From contig JAADDJ010000017.1 of assembly GCA_013153965.1 (NCBI GenBank), positions 70,242-107,245 on the forward strand: a stretch of DNA of 37,004 nt, written 5' to 3'. This document shows, one piece after another, positions 6,690 through 35,424 of the stretch; positions within the stretch are counted from its first letter, which is position 1, and the number at the start of each line of letters is the position of its first letter. This DNA comes from Thermotogae bacterium. Lineage in GTDB: Bacteria > Hydrothermota > Hydrothermia > LBFQ01. The translations under genes and the position numbers were made by a program. The notes beneath the pieces are model-generated. The model saw only the letters and a list, made by a program, of their open reading frames with translations. It ran no database searches and had not been told where the DNA came from.

Positions 6690-7493
6690 ATGAGAAGGAA
6701 TCTTTTCTTCCTCGGTGTTATGTCCGTGGGCCTCATCGCCTTCGGATGCAAAAAGGCGGCTCCTACCGCCTTCATGCGCGGCCTGAGTATGTACTACGCT
6801 ACCCCCGAAGGCACATACACCTGGCACTCCTTGGGAATTGAGGCCGTGAGTCCCAACTACACACCCCAGGTGAATATAAACGGCTACGTGGTGCCCAAGG
6901 AGAACATAAGCGAAGGCTTCGCGAACTATTCCATAGACGACACCCTCCCCAAGGTTTCGCCCAACACGGACCTGCAGGTGAAGGTCACCTACTACGACCT
7001 CAACGACTCTAAGAAGGAGGCCTCCGCCAATATAAAGCTCGCCCCCGAGCCCGCGGGCTTTAGCCTGAGCATAACGAGCGGTCAGGTCAACGTGGCTTGG
7101 GCGCAGGTGGACCCCAAGGCCGTATCCTTCATCGGTGTTTTCGTAGATGCGAGTTGCTTGGACGCCGACTACAACTACCAGTACGCCCAGTGGGATACGA
7201 TACTGACCGACGTTCAGGAGGCCACATCCATCAGTCTCACCCTCGGGACACTCTGCGACGAGATAGGGGACCCCGTGGCCGCCCGCGTTGAGGCCGCGGT
7301 CATGAACGGCGTGGGCCCTTGGAGCGGGGCCAAGGACAACCTGAAGGGTATAGTGGGTCAGTACTACGGAGGTACCATCCGCTCCGATACCGCCTCGTGG
7401 GTGGCGAGCACCACCTACACCCTGCCCGAGTATCCCAACCTTGACATAAACTCCCTCCTTCGGAGGGTTAAGGGACTCCTCGGCGAGTGGTAG
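6690..7493 (+). CDS. Putative lipoprotein of unknown function
   Basis: The 267-residue protein starts MRRNLFFLGVMSVGLIAFGC: two arginines, a hydrophobic core and a cysteine at position 20 preceded by AFG. This is a slightly atypical lipobox, so lipidation is likely but not certain. The mature part is rich in beta-strand-like segments (LQVKVTYYDLND, GFSLSITSGQVNVAWAQVD) resembling one or two Ig/fibronectin-like domains, with no catalytic motif. It probably sits on an envelope membrane facing the periplasm or the outside. It is a single-gene unit with its own promoter and a strong hairpin just after the stop codon. I do not recognise the family. Confidence 0.82.
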   Translation: MRRNLFFLGVMSVGLIAFGCKKAAPTAFMRGLSMYYATPEGTYTWHSLGIEAVSPNYTPQVNINGYVVPKENISEGFANYSIDDTLPKVSPNTDLQVKVTYYDLNDSKKEASANIKLAPEPAGFSLSITSGQVNVAWAQVDPKAVSFIGVFVDASCLDADYNYQYAQWDTILTDVQEATSISLTLGTLCDEIGDPVAARVEAAVMNGVGPWSGAKDNLKGIVGQYYGGTIRSDTASWVASTTYTLPEYPNLDINSLLRRVKGLLGEW

Positions 7494-7500
7494 TAAGCGC

Positions 7501-7522
7501 GGAGGGGGCAGGTGCCCCCTCC
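7501..7522 (+). terminator. Hairpin terminator after the lipoprotein gene
   Basis: GGAGGGGGC (7501-7509) pairs perfectly with GCCCCCTCC (7514-7522) around an AGGT loop. The sequence after it is only moderately T-rich. It lies 7 bases after the lipoprotein stop and ends 15 bases before the acuC start, so it probably limits read-through into acuC. Confidence 0.65.
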
Positions 7523-7537
7523 CCTTTCCCTTTGGGC

Positions 7538-8650
7538 ATGAGAGTGGCATTCATTGACACGTCTCCCTTTTGGAGGTTCTCCTACGGACCCGCCCATCCC
7601 TTCAAGCTCCACCGTCTGCTCCTGACCCAAAGGATGCAGGGGCTGAAGGGTTTGCTTGATCATAGCGACGTACTTCCCCCCGAGCCCATAGACGAGGGCA
7701 AGCTTTTGCGCTTCCATACGCCCGACTATCTGCGAATCCTCCGGGAGGCCAACTCGGGAGTATTTAGGGATTACATGGCCCTCTACGGCCTCGGATACGG
7801 CGACAATCCGGTCTTTCCCGGTCTCTACGACTACTCAAGGCTCGTCGCGGGCGCATCCGCCTTGGCCGCCCGCAAGGTGGCGAGTGAAGGATACCTCAGG
7901 GCCTTCAACATGGCCGGGGGATTGCACCACGCCATGCCCGACCGCGCCTACGGATTCTGCTACCTGAATGACCCGGTGATGGCGATATACGAACTTTTGG
8001 AGAGGTACGAGAGGGTGCTCTATCTGGATGTAGATGCCCATCACGGCGACGGGGTTCAGCTGGCCTTCTACCATAACCCGCGCGTTCTGACGATCAGCAC
8101 CCATGAGAGCGGCAAGTACCTGTTCCCGGGAACGGGCCACGAGTACGAGATGGGGGAGGGTAGCGGATACGGGTACGCCCTCAACGTGCCCTTCCCGCCC
8201 ATGGCGGGGGACGACGTATATACCTTCGCCTTGGAGGAGGTGGTATTTCCCGCCGTTGAGCGATTCAACCCGCAGGTGGTGGTGAGCCAACTCGGGGCGG
8301 ATGCCCTCGCGGGGGATCCCCTGACCCACTGGAACCTGTCGTTGAACTCCTTCCTCCGGGTCCTCAAATTCTTGGACGGACTCAACTTGCCTTGGGTGGC
8401 CTTAGGTGGAGGTGGCTACAACATCCCCAACGTCGTGAGGGCTTGGACGCACGCCCTTGCCGTCCTCACGGGTGCGGGGATGACCTACGATGTTCCCGAG
8501 GAGTGGGCGGCGTTGGCCGAGGGGTACGGCGTGAGGTTGGAGTCCTTGGAGCCGGGCGATGAGACCGTATCCTCCGACGAGGTTTGGAGGGCGGTTAGGG
8601 ATGTGGTGCATTTCCTAAAGGGTCGCCATCCGCTCCTCGTGCATCCTTAA
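7538..8650 (+). CDS. acuC: AcuC-type histone deacetylase family protein
   Basis: The 370-residue protein is a class I/II-like zinc deacetylase of the AcuC branch. Metal and catalytic motifs are present: GGLHHAM (about 126-132), the metal-binding LDVDAHHGDGV (about 163-173), GADALAGDPLTHW (about 253-265) and the catalytic-tyrosine motif GGGGY (about 289-293). AcuC enzymes deacetylate protein lysines, classically acetyl-CoA synthetase. The start at ATG 7538 matches the family opening (MRVAFIDTSPF...YGPAHPFKLHRL); the longer GTG start at 7487 would add residues spanning the terminator hairpin. Unusually, I see neither a -10 box nor a Shine-Dalgarno site at this start. No acetyltransferase or acsA is adjacent. 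Confidence 0.93.
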   Translation: MRVAFIDTSPFWRFSYGPAHPFKLHRLLLTQRMQGLKGLLDHSDVLPPEPIDEGKLLRFHTPDYLRILREANSGVFRDYMALYGLGYGDNPVFPGLYDYSRLVAGASALAARKVASEGYLRAFNMAGGLHHAMPDRAYGFCYLNDPVMAIYELLERYERVLYLDVDAHHGDGVQLAFYHNPRVLTISTHESGKYLFPGTGHEYEMGEGSGYGYALNVPFPPMAGDDVYTFALEEVVFPAVERFNPQVVVSQLGADALAGDPLTHWNLSLNSFLRVLKFLDGLNLPWVALGGGGYNIPNVVRAWTHALAVLTGAGMTYDVPEEWAALAEGYGVRLESLEPGDETVSSDEVWRAVRDVVHFLKGRHPLLVHP

Positions 8651-31049: not shown

Positions 31050-31072
31050 GGGGGAGGGCATCGCCCTCCCCC
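31050..31072 (+). terminator. Strong hairpin terminator after ferredoxin
   Basis: GGGGGAGGGC (31050-31059) pairs with GCCCTCCCCC (31063-31072) around a three-base ATC loop, followed by TTTAGTAT. It ends the ferredoxin unit just before the FIST operon promoter. Confidence 0.8.
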
Positions 31073-31088: not shown

Positions 31089-32372
31089 ATGTTTGCAGAA
31101 GGAAAGTTCTTTGAGCGCACGGATAGGGGGCGGAAGGAGGAGAAGGAGCGGAAGGGTGGAAGGGTGGAGAGGCCCAAGTATCGCTTCGCCGTGGGCGTGG
31201 CCGTGGATGAGCCCCCGGGAGCCGTAGGCTTTAGCGCCGTAAACAGGGCCGTTGAATCCTTGGGAGGGAAACCTTCCTTCGCCTTCGTGGCCATCTCCAA
31301 GGAGTACGAGAGCAATCGCAAGGCCATCCTGGAGGGGGTGATGAGGGTGTTGGAGGATACCCCCCTTCTGGGTGCCATCGTCCTTGACCCCATAATGACG
31401 TGGAGAGGTCCCCAACGTAAGGGGGTGGCCGTGGCCCTCTGGACGGCCGACGAGGATATGCTCATAGACACCCACCTGCTCAAACTCCACAACAGGGAGG
31501 ACGAGGAGATAAAGGATGAGCTGCTCCGCATATTCCAAGGGGGAGAGAGCAAAAGATATCTCAACCTCGTGGGCGTTCTCCCCTACTACTCGGAGGGGGT
31601 GGGGGAGAGGCTGGAGAGGATCCTCCTATCTTTAAGCGAGTATATTGACCTGGCGGTCATAGGGGTCGTGGGAGCGGTGAATCCGGGGCCGTGGTCAATA
31701 ATCCACAACGGCGACTTCTACTCCAGCCACATGGCCTTGGCCACCCTGAGGACCGACATACCGTTGGGCGTCTTCTTCGCCCACGGCTTCCATCCTCTCG
31801 TACCCATGGAGGTGACGGAGGCGCACGATAGATTCATCGTTGAGCTGGACAACTCCCCCGCCTACGAGGTCATAACCGACATCCTCATGGGCAGGGGTGT
31901 GGGCGGAGAGGACATAAAGGACAGGGGTAGGCTCCGCAAGGTGCTCTCTAAATTCCAGATGGCCATATCCGACCCCGCCGCCGCCGGGAAGTTCAAGACG
32001 GCGGTAATTAGGGATATAGGACCTCGGGGCGTAGAGGTAAATATAAGCATCTCCGTGGGCGACACCGTGTGGCTCATGGAGGCCAATCCGGACGAGATCG
32101 TAAAGAGTACGATGAAGTCCCTGACCCGCGCCCTATCAACCCTCAAGGATGTGAGCCCGGCTGGATACCTCTTCTTTGAGAATCATCTGCGGATATCCGC
32201 GCTGGGCGAGCGTCTCGGCTACGACGTCAAGGGTCTGAAGCAGGCATCCCCCCTGCCCTTCTTGGGAGTCCCATCCTCGCAGGAGCTGGTGATACACCAC
32301 TCGGTATATTCCGGACTCCACAGCGGAGCCGTGGCCGGGGTCCTCTTTACAAACTCCACAAAACGCCCTTAA
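31089..32372 (+). CDS. FIST-domain sensory protein
   Basis: The 427-residue protein has the FIST_N/FIST_C layout. After a highly charged N-terminal segment (about 5-28), FIST_N runs to about 225 (SFAFVAISKEYESNRKAILEGV, then DLAVIGVVGAVNPGPWSIIHNG). FIST_C runs from about 230 to 420 (GVFFAHGFHPLVPMEVTEAHD, SPAYEVITDIL, and a final GAVAGVLF). FIST proteins are predicted small-ligand sensors, possibly for amino acids, usually tied to kinases or diguanylate enzymes. No signal peptide or membrane helix is seen, so it is cytoplasmic. Here it heads an operon with Roadblock, MglA-like GTPase and PAS-kinase genes, making it the probable input component. Confidence 0.88.
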   Translation: MFAEGKFFERTDRGRKEEKERKGGRVERPKYRFAVGVAVDEPPGAVGFSAVNRAVESLGGKPSFAFVAISKEYESNRKAILEGVMRVLEDTPLLGAIVLDPIMTWRGPQRKGVAVALWTADEDMLIDTHLLKLHNREDEEIKDELLRIFQGGESKRYLNLVGVLPYYSEGVGERLERILLSLSEYIDLAVIGVVGAVNPGPWSIIHNGDFYSSHMALATLRTDIPLGVFFAHGFHPLVPMEVTEAHDRFIVELDNSPAYEVITDILMGRGVGGEDIKDRGRLRKVLSKFQMAISDPAAAGKFKTAVIRDIGPRGVEVNISISVGDTVWLMEANPDEIVKSTMKSLTRALSTLKDVSPAGYLFFENHLRISALGERLGYDVKGLKQASPLPFLGVPSSQELVIHHSVYSGLHSGAVAGVLFTNSTKRP

Positions 32373-32375
32373 AAT
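32370..32375 (+). promoter_or_regulatory. Possible internal -10 box TAAAAT before the Roadblock gene, containing the FIST stop codon
   Basis: TAAAAT begins with the FIST stop codon. The Roadblock ATG is 21 bases further on behind GTGGAGGT, so this would give a leader of about 15 bases. It could allow Roadblock-MglA-kinase expression apart from FIST. Confidence 0.4.
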
Positions 32376-32396
32376 ACTAAAACGTGGAGGTAGAAT

Positions 32397-32846
32397 ATGA
32401 ACCGTCAAGTTGAGAATCTGCTCAAGCAGCTGGTTAAGAGGAATCCCCAGATAAAGGCCGTCGCCGTGGTGAATTTTGAGGGGATCCTCATATCCTCCCT
32501 CTCGCTGCAGGGTGCCAACGAGTCGTCCTTCGGAGCCATGTCCGCCGCCCTCCTCGGTCTCGGAGAGCACGCCCTTAGGGAGATTCAGGGTGGCGAGCTG
32601 CGGGAGATATACGTGCGCGGCGAGGAGATGATGCTCGTCATAGTTGGCATAGGGGACGTGGGGGTGATAGCCATAACCGTGGATGCGGATGCTCCCCTCG
32701 GCGTCATCCTGATGGAGGTGCGCCGCACGGCCAACGCCCTGAACAAGGTACTCTCCCAGAAGCAGGACCTGTCCGACATCCTCGGCTCCGACCTATCCAT
32801 ACTGGAGGAGTTCTCCTTCAAGGACATAATAGGCGAAGAAGAGTAG
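32397..32846 (+). CDS. Roadblock/LC7-domain protein (MglB-like)
   Basis: This 149-residue protein has the Roadblock/LC7 fold pattern: an opening helix (NRQVENLLKQLVKRNP), the strand AVAVVNFEGILISS (about 21-34), and a helix around GAMSAALLGLGEHALRE. The strands REIYVRGEEMMLVIVGIGDVGVIAITV (about 64-90) follow, then a last long helix. A 40-residue acidic tail extends beyond it. Roadblock proteins of this kind (MglB) act as GAP or partner of MglA-type GTPases, and the GTPase gene follows 3 bases later. The start is set by GGAGGT 5 bases before the ATG. Confidence 0.9.
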   Translation: MNRQVENLLKQLVKRNPQIKAVAVVNFEGILISSLSLQGANESSFGAMSAALLGLGEHALREIQGGELREIYVRGEEMMLVIVGIGDVGVIAITVDADAPLGVILMEVRRTANALNKVLSQKQDLSDILGSDLSILEEFSFKDIIGEEE

Positions 32847-32849
32847 GCG

Positions 32850-33440
32850 ATGGTAATAGACGTTCATAAGAGGGAGATAAACGTTAAGATAGTGTATTAC
32901 GGTCCCGCGGTAAGCGGAAAGACCACAAATCTCCTCGTCATCCACCGTCGCCTCAAGCCGGCCCACCGCGGAGAGCTGGTCTCCATAGACACGAAGGGCG
33001 AGAGGACCCTCTTCTTTGACTTCCTACCGGTTGAGGTGAAGATAGGTGGTGGATTCAAGGTCAGATTCCACCTATACACCGTACCCGGGCAGTACTTCTA
33101 CAAGACCTCCCGCAAGCTCGTTCTAAGGGGAGCCGATGGGATCGTCTTCGTGGCCGACTCCCAGAGGAACAGGGCCAAGGATAACCGGGTCATCTGGGAC
33201 GAGATGAAGGATTTCCTAAAGAGTCAGGGAGTGTCCCTCGCGAGCGTCCCCATAGTCCTCCAGTACAACAAGAGGGACCTTCAGGACATAATGAGCGTGG
33301 AGGAGCTCCACGCCCTGTTTGATGGGGGGAGGTACCCTTACTTTGAGGCCATAGCCGTTCAGGGGAAGGGCGTGTTTGAGACACTTGATGCCATATCCAA
33401 GGCCGTCCTCAGGAGCGTCCTTCAGAAGGCCCGTGTATGA
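32850..33440 (+). CDS. MglA-like small Ras-family GTPase
   Basis: The 196-residue protein is a bacterial small GTPase of the MglA type. The P-loop GPAVSGKTTN lies at 18-27. The switch II region reads TVPGQ (77-81) where Ras has DTAGQ, the MglA hallmark, followed by FYKTSRKLVLRGADGIVFVADS. The specificity motif NKRD is in VLQYNKRDL. MglA sets cell polarity and drives gliding or pili reversal in Myxococcus; similar proteins occur in non-gliding bacteria with unknown roles. It lies between its probable regulator (Roadblock) and a PAS-histidine kinase whose ATG overlaps its stop (ATGA). This arrangement suggests a four-protein signalling unit. Confidence 0.93.
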   Translation: MVIDVHKREINVKIVYYGPAVSGKTTNLLVIHRRLKPAHRGELVSIDTKGERTLFFDFLPVEVKIGGGFKVRFHLYTVPGQYFYKTSRKLVLRGADGIVFVADSQRNRAKDNRVIWDEMKDFLKSQGVSLASVPIVLQYNKRDLQDIMSVEELHALFDGGRYPYFEAIAVQGKGVFETLDAISKAVLRSVLQKARV

Positions 33441-34669
33441 ACTTCAAAGAGATACTGGACGTCTTCAAGGAGCCCGCCTTTCTGATAGATAGGGAGCGCA
33501 AGATAATCGCGTGCGGTCAGGGGGTGGGCGAGATGGGGTACAGACCCGAATCTCTGGTGGGCTCCTCCTTGGAGAGTCTCATGAGCCCGCCCTTCAGGGG
33601 GACGGCCGAGGCCGTGATAGAGACGGCCTTCAAGGTGGGGAGGCCCACGTCCGTCAAGGTGGAGGTCTTGAACGCCTTCAGCGAGACCGTCCCCGCCGAG
33701 CTCAGGGTCGTAGCCCTTGAGGAGAAGGGACAGGCCCGATTCCTGTCATCCATATACCCTCAGAGCGCCATAAATTACTCTCTCTTGGAGGAGGTCAATC
33801 TACCCATATGGGTCATGGACCTGCGGGGGAATGTGATATTCAAGAACGATGCCGCCAAACCCGTCCTGCGAAGGCTGGGCAACATCCTTCCGAGGGACGG
33901 GGAGGAGATAAAGCTGAAGGACCTCTCGTACATTACCAAGGTCCGGGAGGTGGCGGATAGGTTCCAGAGGGTCAGGGTCGTCATACTCCTGAACACCCAG
34001 AGCCTCTTGGCCGATAAGCTGAACAGATTCGTCGTCGCCGGAGTTCTCGCCTCCCTCGTCGCCCACGACGTGAAGAACGCGATCTCCTCAACCATCCTCC
34101 TGACGGATCTCATTGACGACCCGAGTTTGAGAAAGCGGATATACAACGGCGTGATGCGGATATACCGCATACACCAGCGAATACTCAACCTCGCCCGGGG
34201 GAAGGTGGAGGCTCAGGAGGTGAGGCTTGATGAGGTGGTGAATGAGGTCTTGGATGATCTCAAGCACAAGCTCCTAAGAAAGAGCATAAAGGTGCGTAGA
34301 GAGTATCCGAAGGACTTCACCCTGAAGACCGATAGGAACGCCCTGTACGAGATCCTCCTGAATCTCATATCCAACGCCATAGACGCCTCAATCCCAGGCG
34401 GGGAGGTGGTGGTGGCGGCGGGCGTATCCCACAACGTATCCTCGGGTAAGATGGAGAAGTTCATCAGCATAAGGGACTCCGGGCCGGGAATACCGCCCGA
34501 CAGGTTGGACAAGATATTCGCCCCCCTATTCACATCCAAGAAGAATGGTATGGGTTTGGGGCTCTTTATAGTCAAACTTCTCTCAAGCAGCGTGGGGGCC
34601 CACGTGAAGGTTAAGAGCGAGCCGGGTAAGGGGGCGGAATTCATGGTCCTATTCCCCGCCGAATCCTGA
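33437..34669 (+). CDS. Soluble PAS-domain sensor histidine kinase
   Basis: This 410-residue protein has two PAS-like domains (about 1-110 and 113-190) and then a histidine kinase core. The phospho-acceptor H210 is in LVAHDVKNAISS. The N box NLISNAIDAS, G1 DSGPGIP, the F box FAPLFTSK and G2 GMGLGLFI are all intact, so it should be active. There is no membrane helix, so it senses an internal signal or a protein partner. No response regulator is encoded next to it. Its ATG overlaps the MglA stop and its stop overlaps the prmC start (TGATG), showing tight coupling. The GTPase or Roadblock protein may control it, or it them. Confidence 0.93.
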   Translation: MNFKEILDVFKEPAFLIDRERKIIACGQGVGEMGYRPESLVGSSLESLMSPPFRGTAEAVIETAFKVGRPTSVKVEVLNAFSETVPAELRVVALEEKGQARFLSSIYPQSAINYSLLEEVNLPIWVMDLRGNVIFKNDAAKPVLRRLGNILPRDGEEIKLKDLSYITKVREVADRFQRVRVVILLNTQSLLADKLNRFVVAGVLASLVAHDVKNAISSTILLTDLIDDPSLRKRIYNGVMRIYRIHQRILNLARGKVEAQEVRLDEVVNEVLDDLKHKLLRKSIKVRREYPKDFTLKTDRNALYEILLNLISNAIDASIPGGEVVVAAGVSHNVSSGKMEKFISIRDSGPGIPPDRLDKIFAPLFTSKKNGMGLGLFIVKLLSSSVGAHVKVKSEPGKGAEFMVLFPAES

Positions 34670-35424
34670 TGCGGCTGGGAGACCTCTCAAGATGCCTCGC
34701 TCAGGAGACGGAGGAGCTCCTTGAGTTGGCCGAGGGGATCTTGGGAATATCCCGCGCTCGCCTCCTCGTTGAGGGTGTGGATTTGGGCGGGGCGAGGGCA
34801 CTTCTGGAAACCCTCCTCGGGTATCCCAAGGGTTATCCCGTACCCTACATCCTCGGGAGGGTCCCCTTCTACGGTAAGGTTTTCCTCGTGGATGAGAGGG
34901 TCCTCATCCCCAGAAGTGAAACGGAGGGTCTGATAGACATAGTCCTCTCTCTGGGCATATCTCCGAAGAGGATAGTAGATGTGGGTACGGGGAGCGGCGT
35001 GCTGGGCATAACCCTCAAGCTCCTCTTTCCCGACGCGCTGGTCATCCTCACGGACCTGTCGCCCGACGCCTTGAAGGTCGCCAAGAGGAATGCCCTCAGG
35101 CTCGGGGCCGAGGTTCGCATGGTGGCCACCGACCTGCTCGCCGGTCTGCGCGGCGAGTATGATCTCATAGTGAGCAACCCACCCTACGTGGCCGAAGGGG
35201 AGGTGGGGATTTACGACCCGCGCGTGAGGTTTGAGCCCGAGATGGCCCTACGGGGGGGAAGGACCGGATACGAGATAACCGAGAGACTCGTACGGGAGGC
35301 GATGGGTATGCTCTCACCGGGTGGATACCTGATATTTGAGAGCGACCCCAAACACTTCCATCGGCTCCCCGCGGGAGCCGAAATCCGGGGCCGCTTCGTC
35401 ATATTAAAAAGAGGGGGGGCCTGA
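34669..35424 (+). CDS. prmC: Release factor glutamine methyltransferase PrmC
   Basis: The 251-residue protein is PrmC (HemK), which methylates the glutamine of the GGQ motif in release factors RF1 and RF2. It has an N-terminal helical release-factor-binding domain (about 1-75) with VPYILGRVPFYG. The SAM-binding motif VDVGTGSGVLGITL (about 103-116) and the catalytic SNPPYV (about 168-173) follow. It is the last gene of the FIST operon by TGATG overlap, and its stop codon lies in the loop of the terminator hairpin. Its presence in a signalling operon is probably only a shared transcript; prfA is not adjacent. Confidence 0.95.
   Translation: MRLGDLSRCLAQETEELLELAEGILGISRARLLVEGVDLGGARALLETLLGYPKGYPVPYILGRVPFYGKVFLVDERVLIPRSETEGLIDIVLSLGISPKRIVDVGTGSGVLGITLKLLFPDALVILTDLSPDALKVAKRNALRLGAEVRMVATDLLAGLRGEYDLIVSNPPYVAEGEVGIYDPRVRFEPEMALRGGRTGYEITERLVREAMGMLSPGGYLIFESDPKHFHRLPAGAEIRGRFVILKRGGA

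Follow-up and report, generated by a model that had tools for sequence, protein, structure and literature searches.

A conserved FIST, Roadblock, MglA-type GTPase and histidine kinase operon in WOR-3 bacteria as part of a candidate two-component route to a Ras-like GTPase

Four intact, collinear open reading frames (ORFs) on the + strand of the window analyzed here, the whole 37,004-nucleotide stretch taken from contig JAADDJ010000017.1, encode a FIST-domain protein, a Roadblock protein, an MglA-type small GTPase and a soluble PAS histidine kinase. The host is a heat-loving uncultured bacterium of the candidate phylum WOR-3 (1.53 Mb in 63 contigs, estimated to be 90% complete). On balance we favor the interpretation that the operon belongs to a FIST-gated two-component pathway ending on the Ras-like GTPase, in which kinase and GTPase would be connected by a response regulator encoded on another contig. 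The gene content, the conserved clustering, the orthology of the regulator, its predicted MglB-like fold and an inventory of two kinases and two regulators are directly supported here. A receiver and a Roadblock-like domain within one protein would constitute a direct, testable physical link from two-component signaling to a Ras-like GTPase; the two-component route to bacterial Ras-like GTPases is poorly understood, and for conservons it is not yet clear how the signal gets from the kinase to the GTPase.

The four-gene operon and its conservation

The genes are arranged as follows:

31089..32372, + strand: FIST-domain protein, 427 aa, putative cytosolic sensor (Pfam)
32397..32846, + strand: Roadblock/LC7 protein, 149 aa, of the MglB-like fold family, not an MglB equivalog
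32850..33440, + strand: MglA-type small GTPase, 196 aa, with P-loop, TVPGQ, NKxD and conserved R52 and Q81
33437..34669, + strand: soluble PAS histidine kinase, 410 aa, phospho-acceptor H210

A first-pass annotation of the window had named these four genes, with gaps of 24 bases (FIST/Roadblock) and 3 bases (Roadblock/GTPase) and an ATGA overlap between GTPase and kinase, and both the ORFs and the Pfam matches bear this out. The FIST N domain is matched above the Pfam cut-off (3.6e-13) and FIST_C just under it (1.1e-5, 26.0 bits against a cut-off of 28.5), so that the protein stands as a FIST family member, and the small-ligand sensing ascribed to it is what would be expected at the level of the family. 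Sequence search found no solved structural relative of the FIST protein, and an identity as NosP was rejected as no NCBIfam model matched. The second protein belongs to Robl_LC7 only (Pfam 1.8e-12); its closest solved relatives are Roadblock proteins, and it scores 24 bits against the curated cut-off of 200 for the MglB equivalog NF052242. A further Roadblock gene in the same genome (L193:11913-12308), with weak similarity to the MAPKK1-interacting (MP1) family as well, has no operon-type GTPase alongside.

Assignment of the GTPase to the MglA family is supported by its P-loop, its TVPGQ G3 motif, its NKxD motif, its similarity to solved MglA structures and its coupled Roadblock gene. The protein exceeds the Pfam Arf/Ras cut-offs, its closest solved relatives are the MglA proteins of Thermus and Myxococcus (best PDB match Thermus MglA, 1.9e-62), and its motifs GPAVSGKT, GERTLFF, TVPGQ and YNKRD are intact. 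Among 16 operon GTPases the arginine finger R52 and the catalytic glutamine Q81 do not vary, and both residues align to Thermus MglA; their spacing is the same as that of R53 and Q82 in M. xanthus. In a phylogenetic tree the GTPases of these clusters are set apart from conventional MglA across a branch with 94/85 support. The nearest named contigs are assigned to candidate division WOR-3, including one of Candidatus Caldipriscus, with a single exception. This public contig labeled Thermotogota (JAADCS010000161.1, L065) is 91% identical to the WOR-3 operon in the GTPase; its label is therefore probably wrong, and the contig probably comes from a mislabeled metagenome-assembled genome. One genus member carries a second MglA/Roadblock pair 3' of a thiamine-pyrophosphate oxidoreductase subunit (L178:363-2427, G002:C141), which may represent contamination (7%).

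The kinase is recognized by its HATPase_c domain (2.4e-23), whereas its PAS and HisKA matches are weak and below the Pfam cut-off. It retains H210 within AHDVKN, the N-box, DSGPGI and GMGLGL, and the H, N and G boxes are invariant among the operon kinases aligned; the intactness of GTPase and kinase motifs had been noted from the window and holds. So does the solubility of the kinase, which has no transmembrane-like stretch (maximum KD19 of 1.48) and ends right after the ATPase domain.

To place the operon among its relatives, families were numbered f1, f2 and so on within a class sample of 40 genomes, where f1 is the family of the window (8 genomes), f2 is a second family of the same taxonomic order (4 genomes, 12 for the order) and the genus of the window comprises 6 genomes. 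All 12 f1 and f2 genomes show the order FIST-Roadblock-GTPase-kinase, three of them up to a contig break that falls after the GTPase gene (G004), inside it (G007) or in the kinase gene (G011). In f2 a response regulator gene follows the kinase gene, except in G011. Other arrangements occur in further families: f4, f8 and f10 have FIST-kinase-regulator-GTPase, f5 keeps FIST, kinase and regulator together with its GTPases on other contigs, and f6 has kinase-regulator-Roadblock-GTPase. The clustering is not chance, because the order is kept in f1 and f2 and the parts cluster again in these further families. This conserved clustering substantiates the proposal that the four genes form one signaling unit, and the suggested search for their order in other genomes was thereby answered positively.

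Operon-type FIST proteins (E < 1e-110) were found in 25 of the 40 class genomes, all in f1, f2, f4, f5, f8 and f10; those of f2 are only 27-29% identical. Outside the phylum, no FIST gene was detected near MglA in 73 MglA loci (1.19 Mb, nearly all non-WOR-3 and drawn from the nearest MglA relatives only) with a profile that does recognize distant FIST proteins. A second FIST gene lies on the opposite strand a few kilobases from the operon in f10 (L165:4099-5352, L166:10238-11485). In two f2 genomes, G008 and G009, the operon runs on into genes for a second Roadblock-like protein, a PP2C phosphatase and a Ser/Thr kinase (L150:5675-8069, L151:12795-15009), which may form a second phospho-input.

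A receiver-PATAN regulator and its candidate kinase

The window holds no response regulator gene, as had been stated from its sequence, but that absence does not extend to the system: the operons of f2, f4, f5, f6, f8 and f10 each include a regulator, typed by Pfam as a receiver plus DUF4388/PATAN (REC-PATAN), and an orthologue occurs, unlinked, in the window's genome. This orphan regulator, for which a search had been suggested, was found at L192:7240-8319 on contig C7 and likewise consists of a receiver and DUF4388. Orthologues lie outside the operon in seven of the eight f1 genomes, and none was seen in G003 (85% complete). The unlinked f1 copies are sister to the in-operon copies of f2 (97/91), and all operon-type regulators group together (82/91); we read this topology as the regulator having moved out of the operon in f1. 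Receiver residues D8, D9, D52 and K102 are invariant.

The C-terminal portion of the regulator is what would connect it to the GTPase. In f4, f6, f8 and f10 this portion is Roadblock-like, with a profile-profile probability of 95.5% (E 1.4e-8) against the operon Roadblock and PDB matches to MglB and CvnB5. For the window genome's regulator, the C-terminal domain was modeled alone because a fold search with the whole regulator returned mainly receiver-domain structures. The model, built from the last 104 residues with six orthologues, reached a predicted local distance difference test (pLDDT) value of 91.5, and its top Foldseek matches were MglB chains, including chains from MglA-MglB complexes, with template modeling (TM) scores of 0.60-0.73 and E values from 5.7e-5. 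The window genome's regulator is thus predicted to join a receiver to an MglB-like domain.

The complement of two-component proteins is small enough to narrow the choice of partner. Four HATPase proteins are encoded in the window's genome (the operon kinase, a membrane kinase on C59, a 636-aa GyrB-sized protein and a 170-aa protein), of which two, the operon kinase and the membrane kinase, are sensor kinases, and there are only two receiver proteins. All six genomes of the genus have the same two kinases and no more than two regulators each. The second regulator, encoded on contig C4, is identified as PorX by a score above the curated cut-off; in the f2 genome G009 the in-operon regulator is accompanied by one other, a protein of PorX size (500 residues). 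With two kinases, two regulators and one of the latter identified as PorX, the REC-PATAN protein is therefore the strongest candidate for the partner of this kinase in the operon, and the wiring should be unusually easy to test.

Proposed pathway, competing explanations and output

In the pathway that we propose, FIST would bind a cytosolic ligand and control how the soluble PAS kinase autophosphorylates on H210, and the kinase would pass the phosphate to D52 in the receiver of the regulator at L192:7240-8319. The REC-PATAN-MglB-like regulator, together with the operon Roadblock, would then set the GTP/GDP state of the GTPase through GTPase-activating or guanine nucleotide exchange action, and the MglA-type GTPase would serve as the output switch, whose target in the f1/f2 order is probably something other than a type IV pilus motor. 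Several observations weigh against this scheme. The regulator is unlinked to the operon in the window's genome, and its pairing with the kinase is deduced from orthology and elimination in a genome that is 90% complete; sequence profiles by themselves fail to connect the C-terminal domain of the f1 regulator with Roadblock (probability 9.9%), the link resting on the predicted fold. The operon kinase could also serve PorX. Its own PAS-like domain means that FIST may not be the main input, and f6, with no adjacent FIST gene, indicates that FIST is not indispensable.

The unlinked position of the regulator in the window's family would also suit a conservon-like arrangement, in which FIST controls the kinase, the kinase acts on the Roadblock and GTPase proteins as a pair through direct contact, the GTPase is the output without need of a response regulator, and the REC-PATAN protein serves something else; conservons do operate without a response regulator (PMC4316618, PMC13343842). 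We consider this unlikely, as the regulator lies inside the operon in f2, f4, f5, f6, f8 and f10 and is orthologous to the unlinked copy, the genome has only two regulators, and there is neither a DUF742 protein nor a conservon gene order.

The first-pass annotation had the signal pass from FIST through Roadblock to the GTPase, which would then control the kinase, an order that the position of the GTPase gene between FIST/Roadblock and the kinase in f1 and f2 permits as far as gene order goes. This direction was not borne out and we regard it as very unlikely: a place for the GTPase after the kinase fits better, because the gene next to that of the kinase on its downstream side in relatives encodes a regulator with a Roadblock C-terminus, which puts GTPase control after phosphotransfer. 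Moreover, f4, f8 and f10 have FIST directly beside the kinase and the GTPase last, and the known partners of FIST proteins are kinases (PMC12570481, PMC4398556).

What the GTPase would act on in our preferred pathway is constrained by the apparent loss of pilus motors. No convincing T2SSE match for PilB/PilT/GspE-type ATPases was found in the 12 f1/f2 genomes, where the only match above the Pfam cut-off is partial (26.6 bits, G001), and such ATPases are present in f3-f8. The f1/f2 bacteria thus seem to have lost type IV pili while the operon survives and, in an order without PilB/PilT-type ATPases, the output is probably not type IV pili; the earlier remark that no motility genes lie nearby agrees with the window. 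In f4, a pilT-like gene and a 122-aa gene with no Pfam match, possibly Roadblock-like, converge on the GTPase gene (L155:6660-8185, L158:6973-8499). That the operon is a former pilus control unit now decaying or idle might be supposed from the absence of the ATPases and from this f4 neighborhood, but is the least probable reading in our estimation, since decay would not preserve a GTPase that is 79-91% identical within f1, whose motifs are all intact and whose mean column identity across the class is 64%, or the invariant catalytic residues of kinase and receiver. Persistence of the unit without PilB/PilT-type motors can instead reveal roles of MglA-type switches beyond pilus and gliding polarity.

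One candidate for such a role is the type IX secretion system (T9SS). Its translocon protein SprA was found in all 21 genomes tested (G000:C59:24563-28207 and 20 relatives), under the curated cut-off in G009, and the gene immediately before that of the REC-PATAN regulator belongs to the PorV family, both in the window's genome (L192:6139-7236) and in six relatives (L228-L233), an assignment made by NCBIfam in two genomes and from gene position and the start of the sequence in the remaining ones. A search for GldL, the motor protein of the T9SS, gave no matches in 13 genomes, the control likewise matching nowhere. Neighborhood alone suggests a possible T9SS-related role of the operon. Because the PorV-family gene precedes the regulator gene in seven genomes, we raise as a speculative, rather improbable extension that a FIST-gated phospho-signal, acting through a regulator with an MglB-type output domain, reaches a switch that in this order has been redirected from type IV pili to a different machine of the envelope, perhaps the T9SS. 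The occurrence of SprA across the WOR-3 class, and of PorX in the window's genome, places these proteins outside Bacteroidota.

Two further features flank the operon:

31050..31072, + strand: terminator-like hairpin separating the FIST gene from the ferredoxin gene before it, with 10 pairs, 9 of them G-C, then TTTAGTATAG
34669..35424, + strand: PrmC/HemK-type methyltransferase gene, sharing one base with the stop codon of the kinase gene

The hairpin is the probable upstream edge of the operon, although this evidence is weak, as the region holds 7 terminator-like sites compared with 3.3 in shuffles. The prmC gene is probably a co-transcribed passenger outside the signaling unit; a gene of ~250 aa occupies its place downstream of the kinase in the genus and was not seen there in other families. 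A role in anti-phage defense was rejected, with no PADLOC matches for any of the four proteins. Elsewhere in the window, positions 7487-8650 encode a histone-deacetylase-family protein (Pfam 1.2e-81).

Comparison with known systems

No published system of the same composition was found in the literature searched, which upholds the initial impression of a system without a description; that impression missed partial precedents in NosP/NosK, VpsV/VpsS, conservons and the PATAN proteins noted near MglA in 2014 (PMC4316618). The input half most resembles NosP/NosK/NosR and VpsV/VpsS (PMC4398556), in which a stand-alone FIST gene likewise neighbors the gene for a kinase devoid of transmembrane segments and a response regulator completes the set. 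NosP, a FIST protein, binds and controls the kinase NosK, including its autophosphorylation (PMC12570481); here FIST and kinase share one operon in f1 and f2 and are directly adjacent in f4, f5, f8 and f10. The outputs differ, in that the NosP and VpsV systems lead to cyclic di-GMP (c-di-GMP) turnover or a quorum-sensing phosphorelay and have no GTPase or Roadblock protein, and the NosP regulator carries a c-di-GMP output domain where the present regulator combines a receiver, DUF4388 and a Roadblock-like fold.

Conservons (AGPS; CvnA-D with accessory CvnE/CvnF) likewise place a histidine kinase, a Roadblock protein and an MglA-type GTPase in one operon, and where the kinase lacks a sensory domain they have accessory cytosolic sensors to which we liken FIST: CvnF8, a separate cytosolic sensor, stimulates the CvnA8 kinase, which lacks a sensory domain, in such a Roadblock/GTPase system (PMC13343842). 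They differ in possessing the DUF742 protein CvnC, matched by none of the operon proteins here, and a C-terminal LPxR extension of the kinase, which is absent from the operon kinase. Conservons also lack the response regulator that is in the operon in six families here, use GAF or P450 rather than FIST sensors, and differ in gene order and phylum.

MglA/MglB with RomR or PATAN proteins (Myxococcus; Group 1 and 5 neighborhoods) resemble the present system in having an MglA-type GTPase with a Roadblock regulator and with input from a response regulator. They have neither a FIST sensor nor a dedicated kinase in the operon, whereas here a single protein carries the receiver, PATAN and Roadblock-like domains, and PilB/PilT-type motors to be controlled are missing. 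Group 1 Rup loci also encode a small GTPase with a signaling output such as a histidine kinase (PMC4316618), but Rup GTPases have no coupled MglB-like protein, unlike the MglA-type GTPase here with its adjacent Roadblock gene. The WOR-3 system combines the logic of NosP/NosK, conservons and RomR/MglA, its parts and most of their pairwise links being known elsewhere, and the set of FIST, kinase, regulator and GTPase would make up a complete sensor-to-switch pathway, apparently of a kind not previously described.

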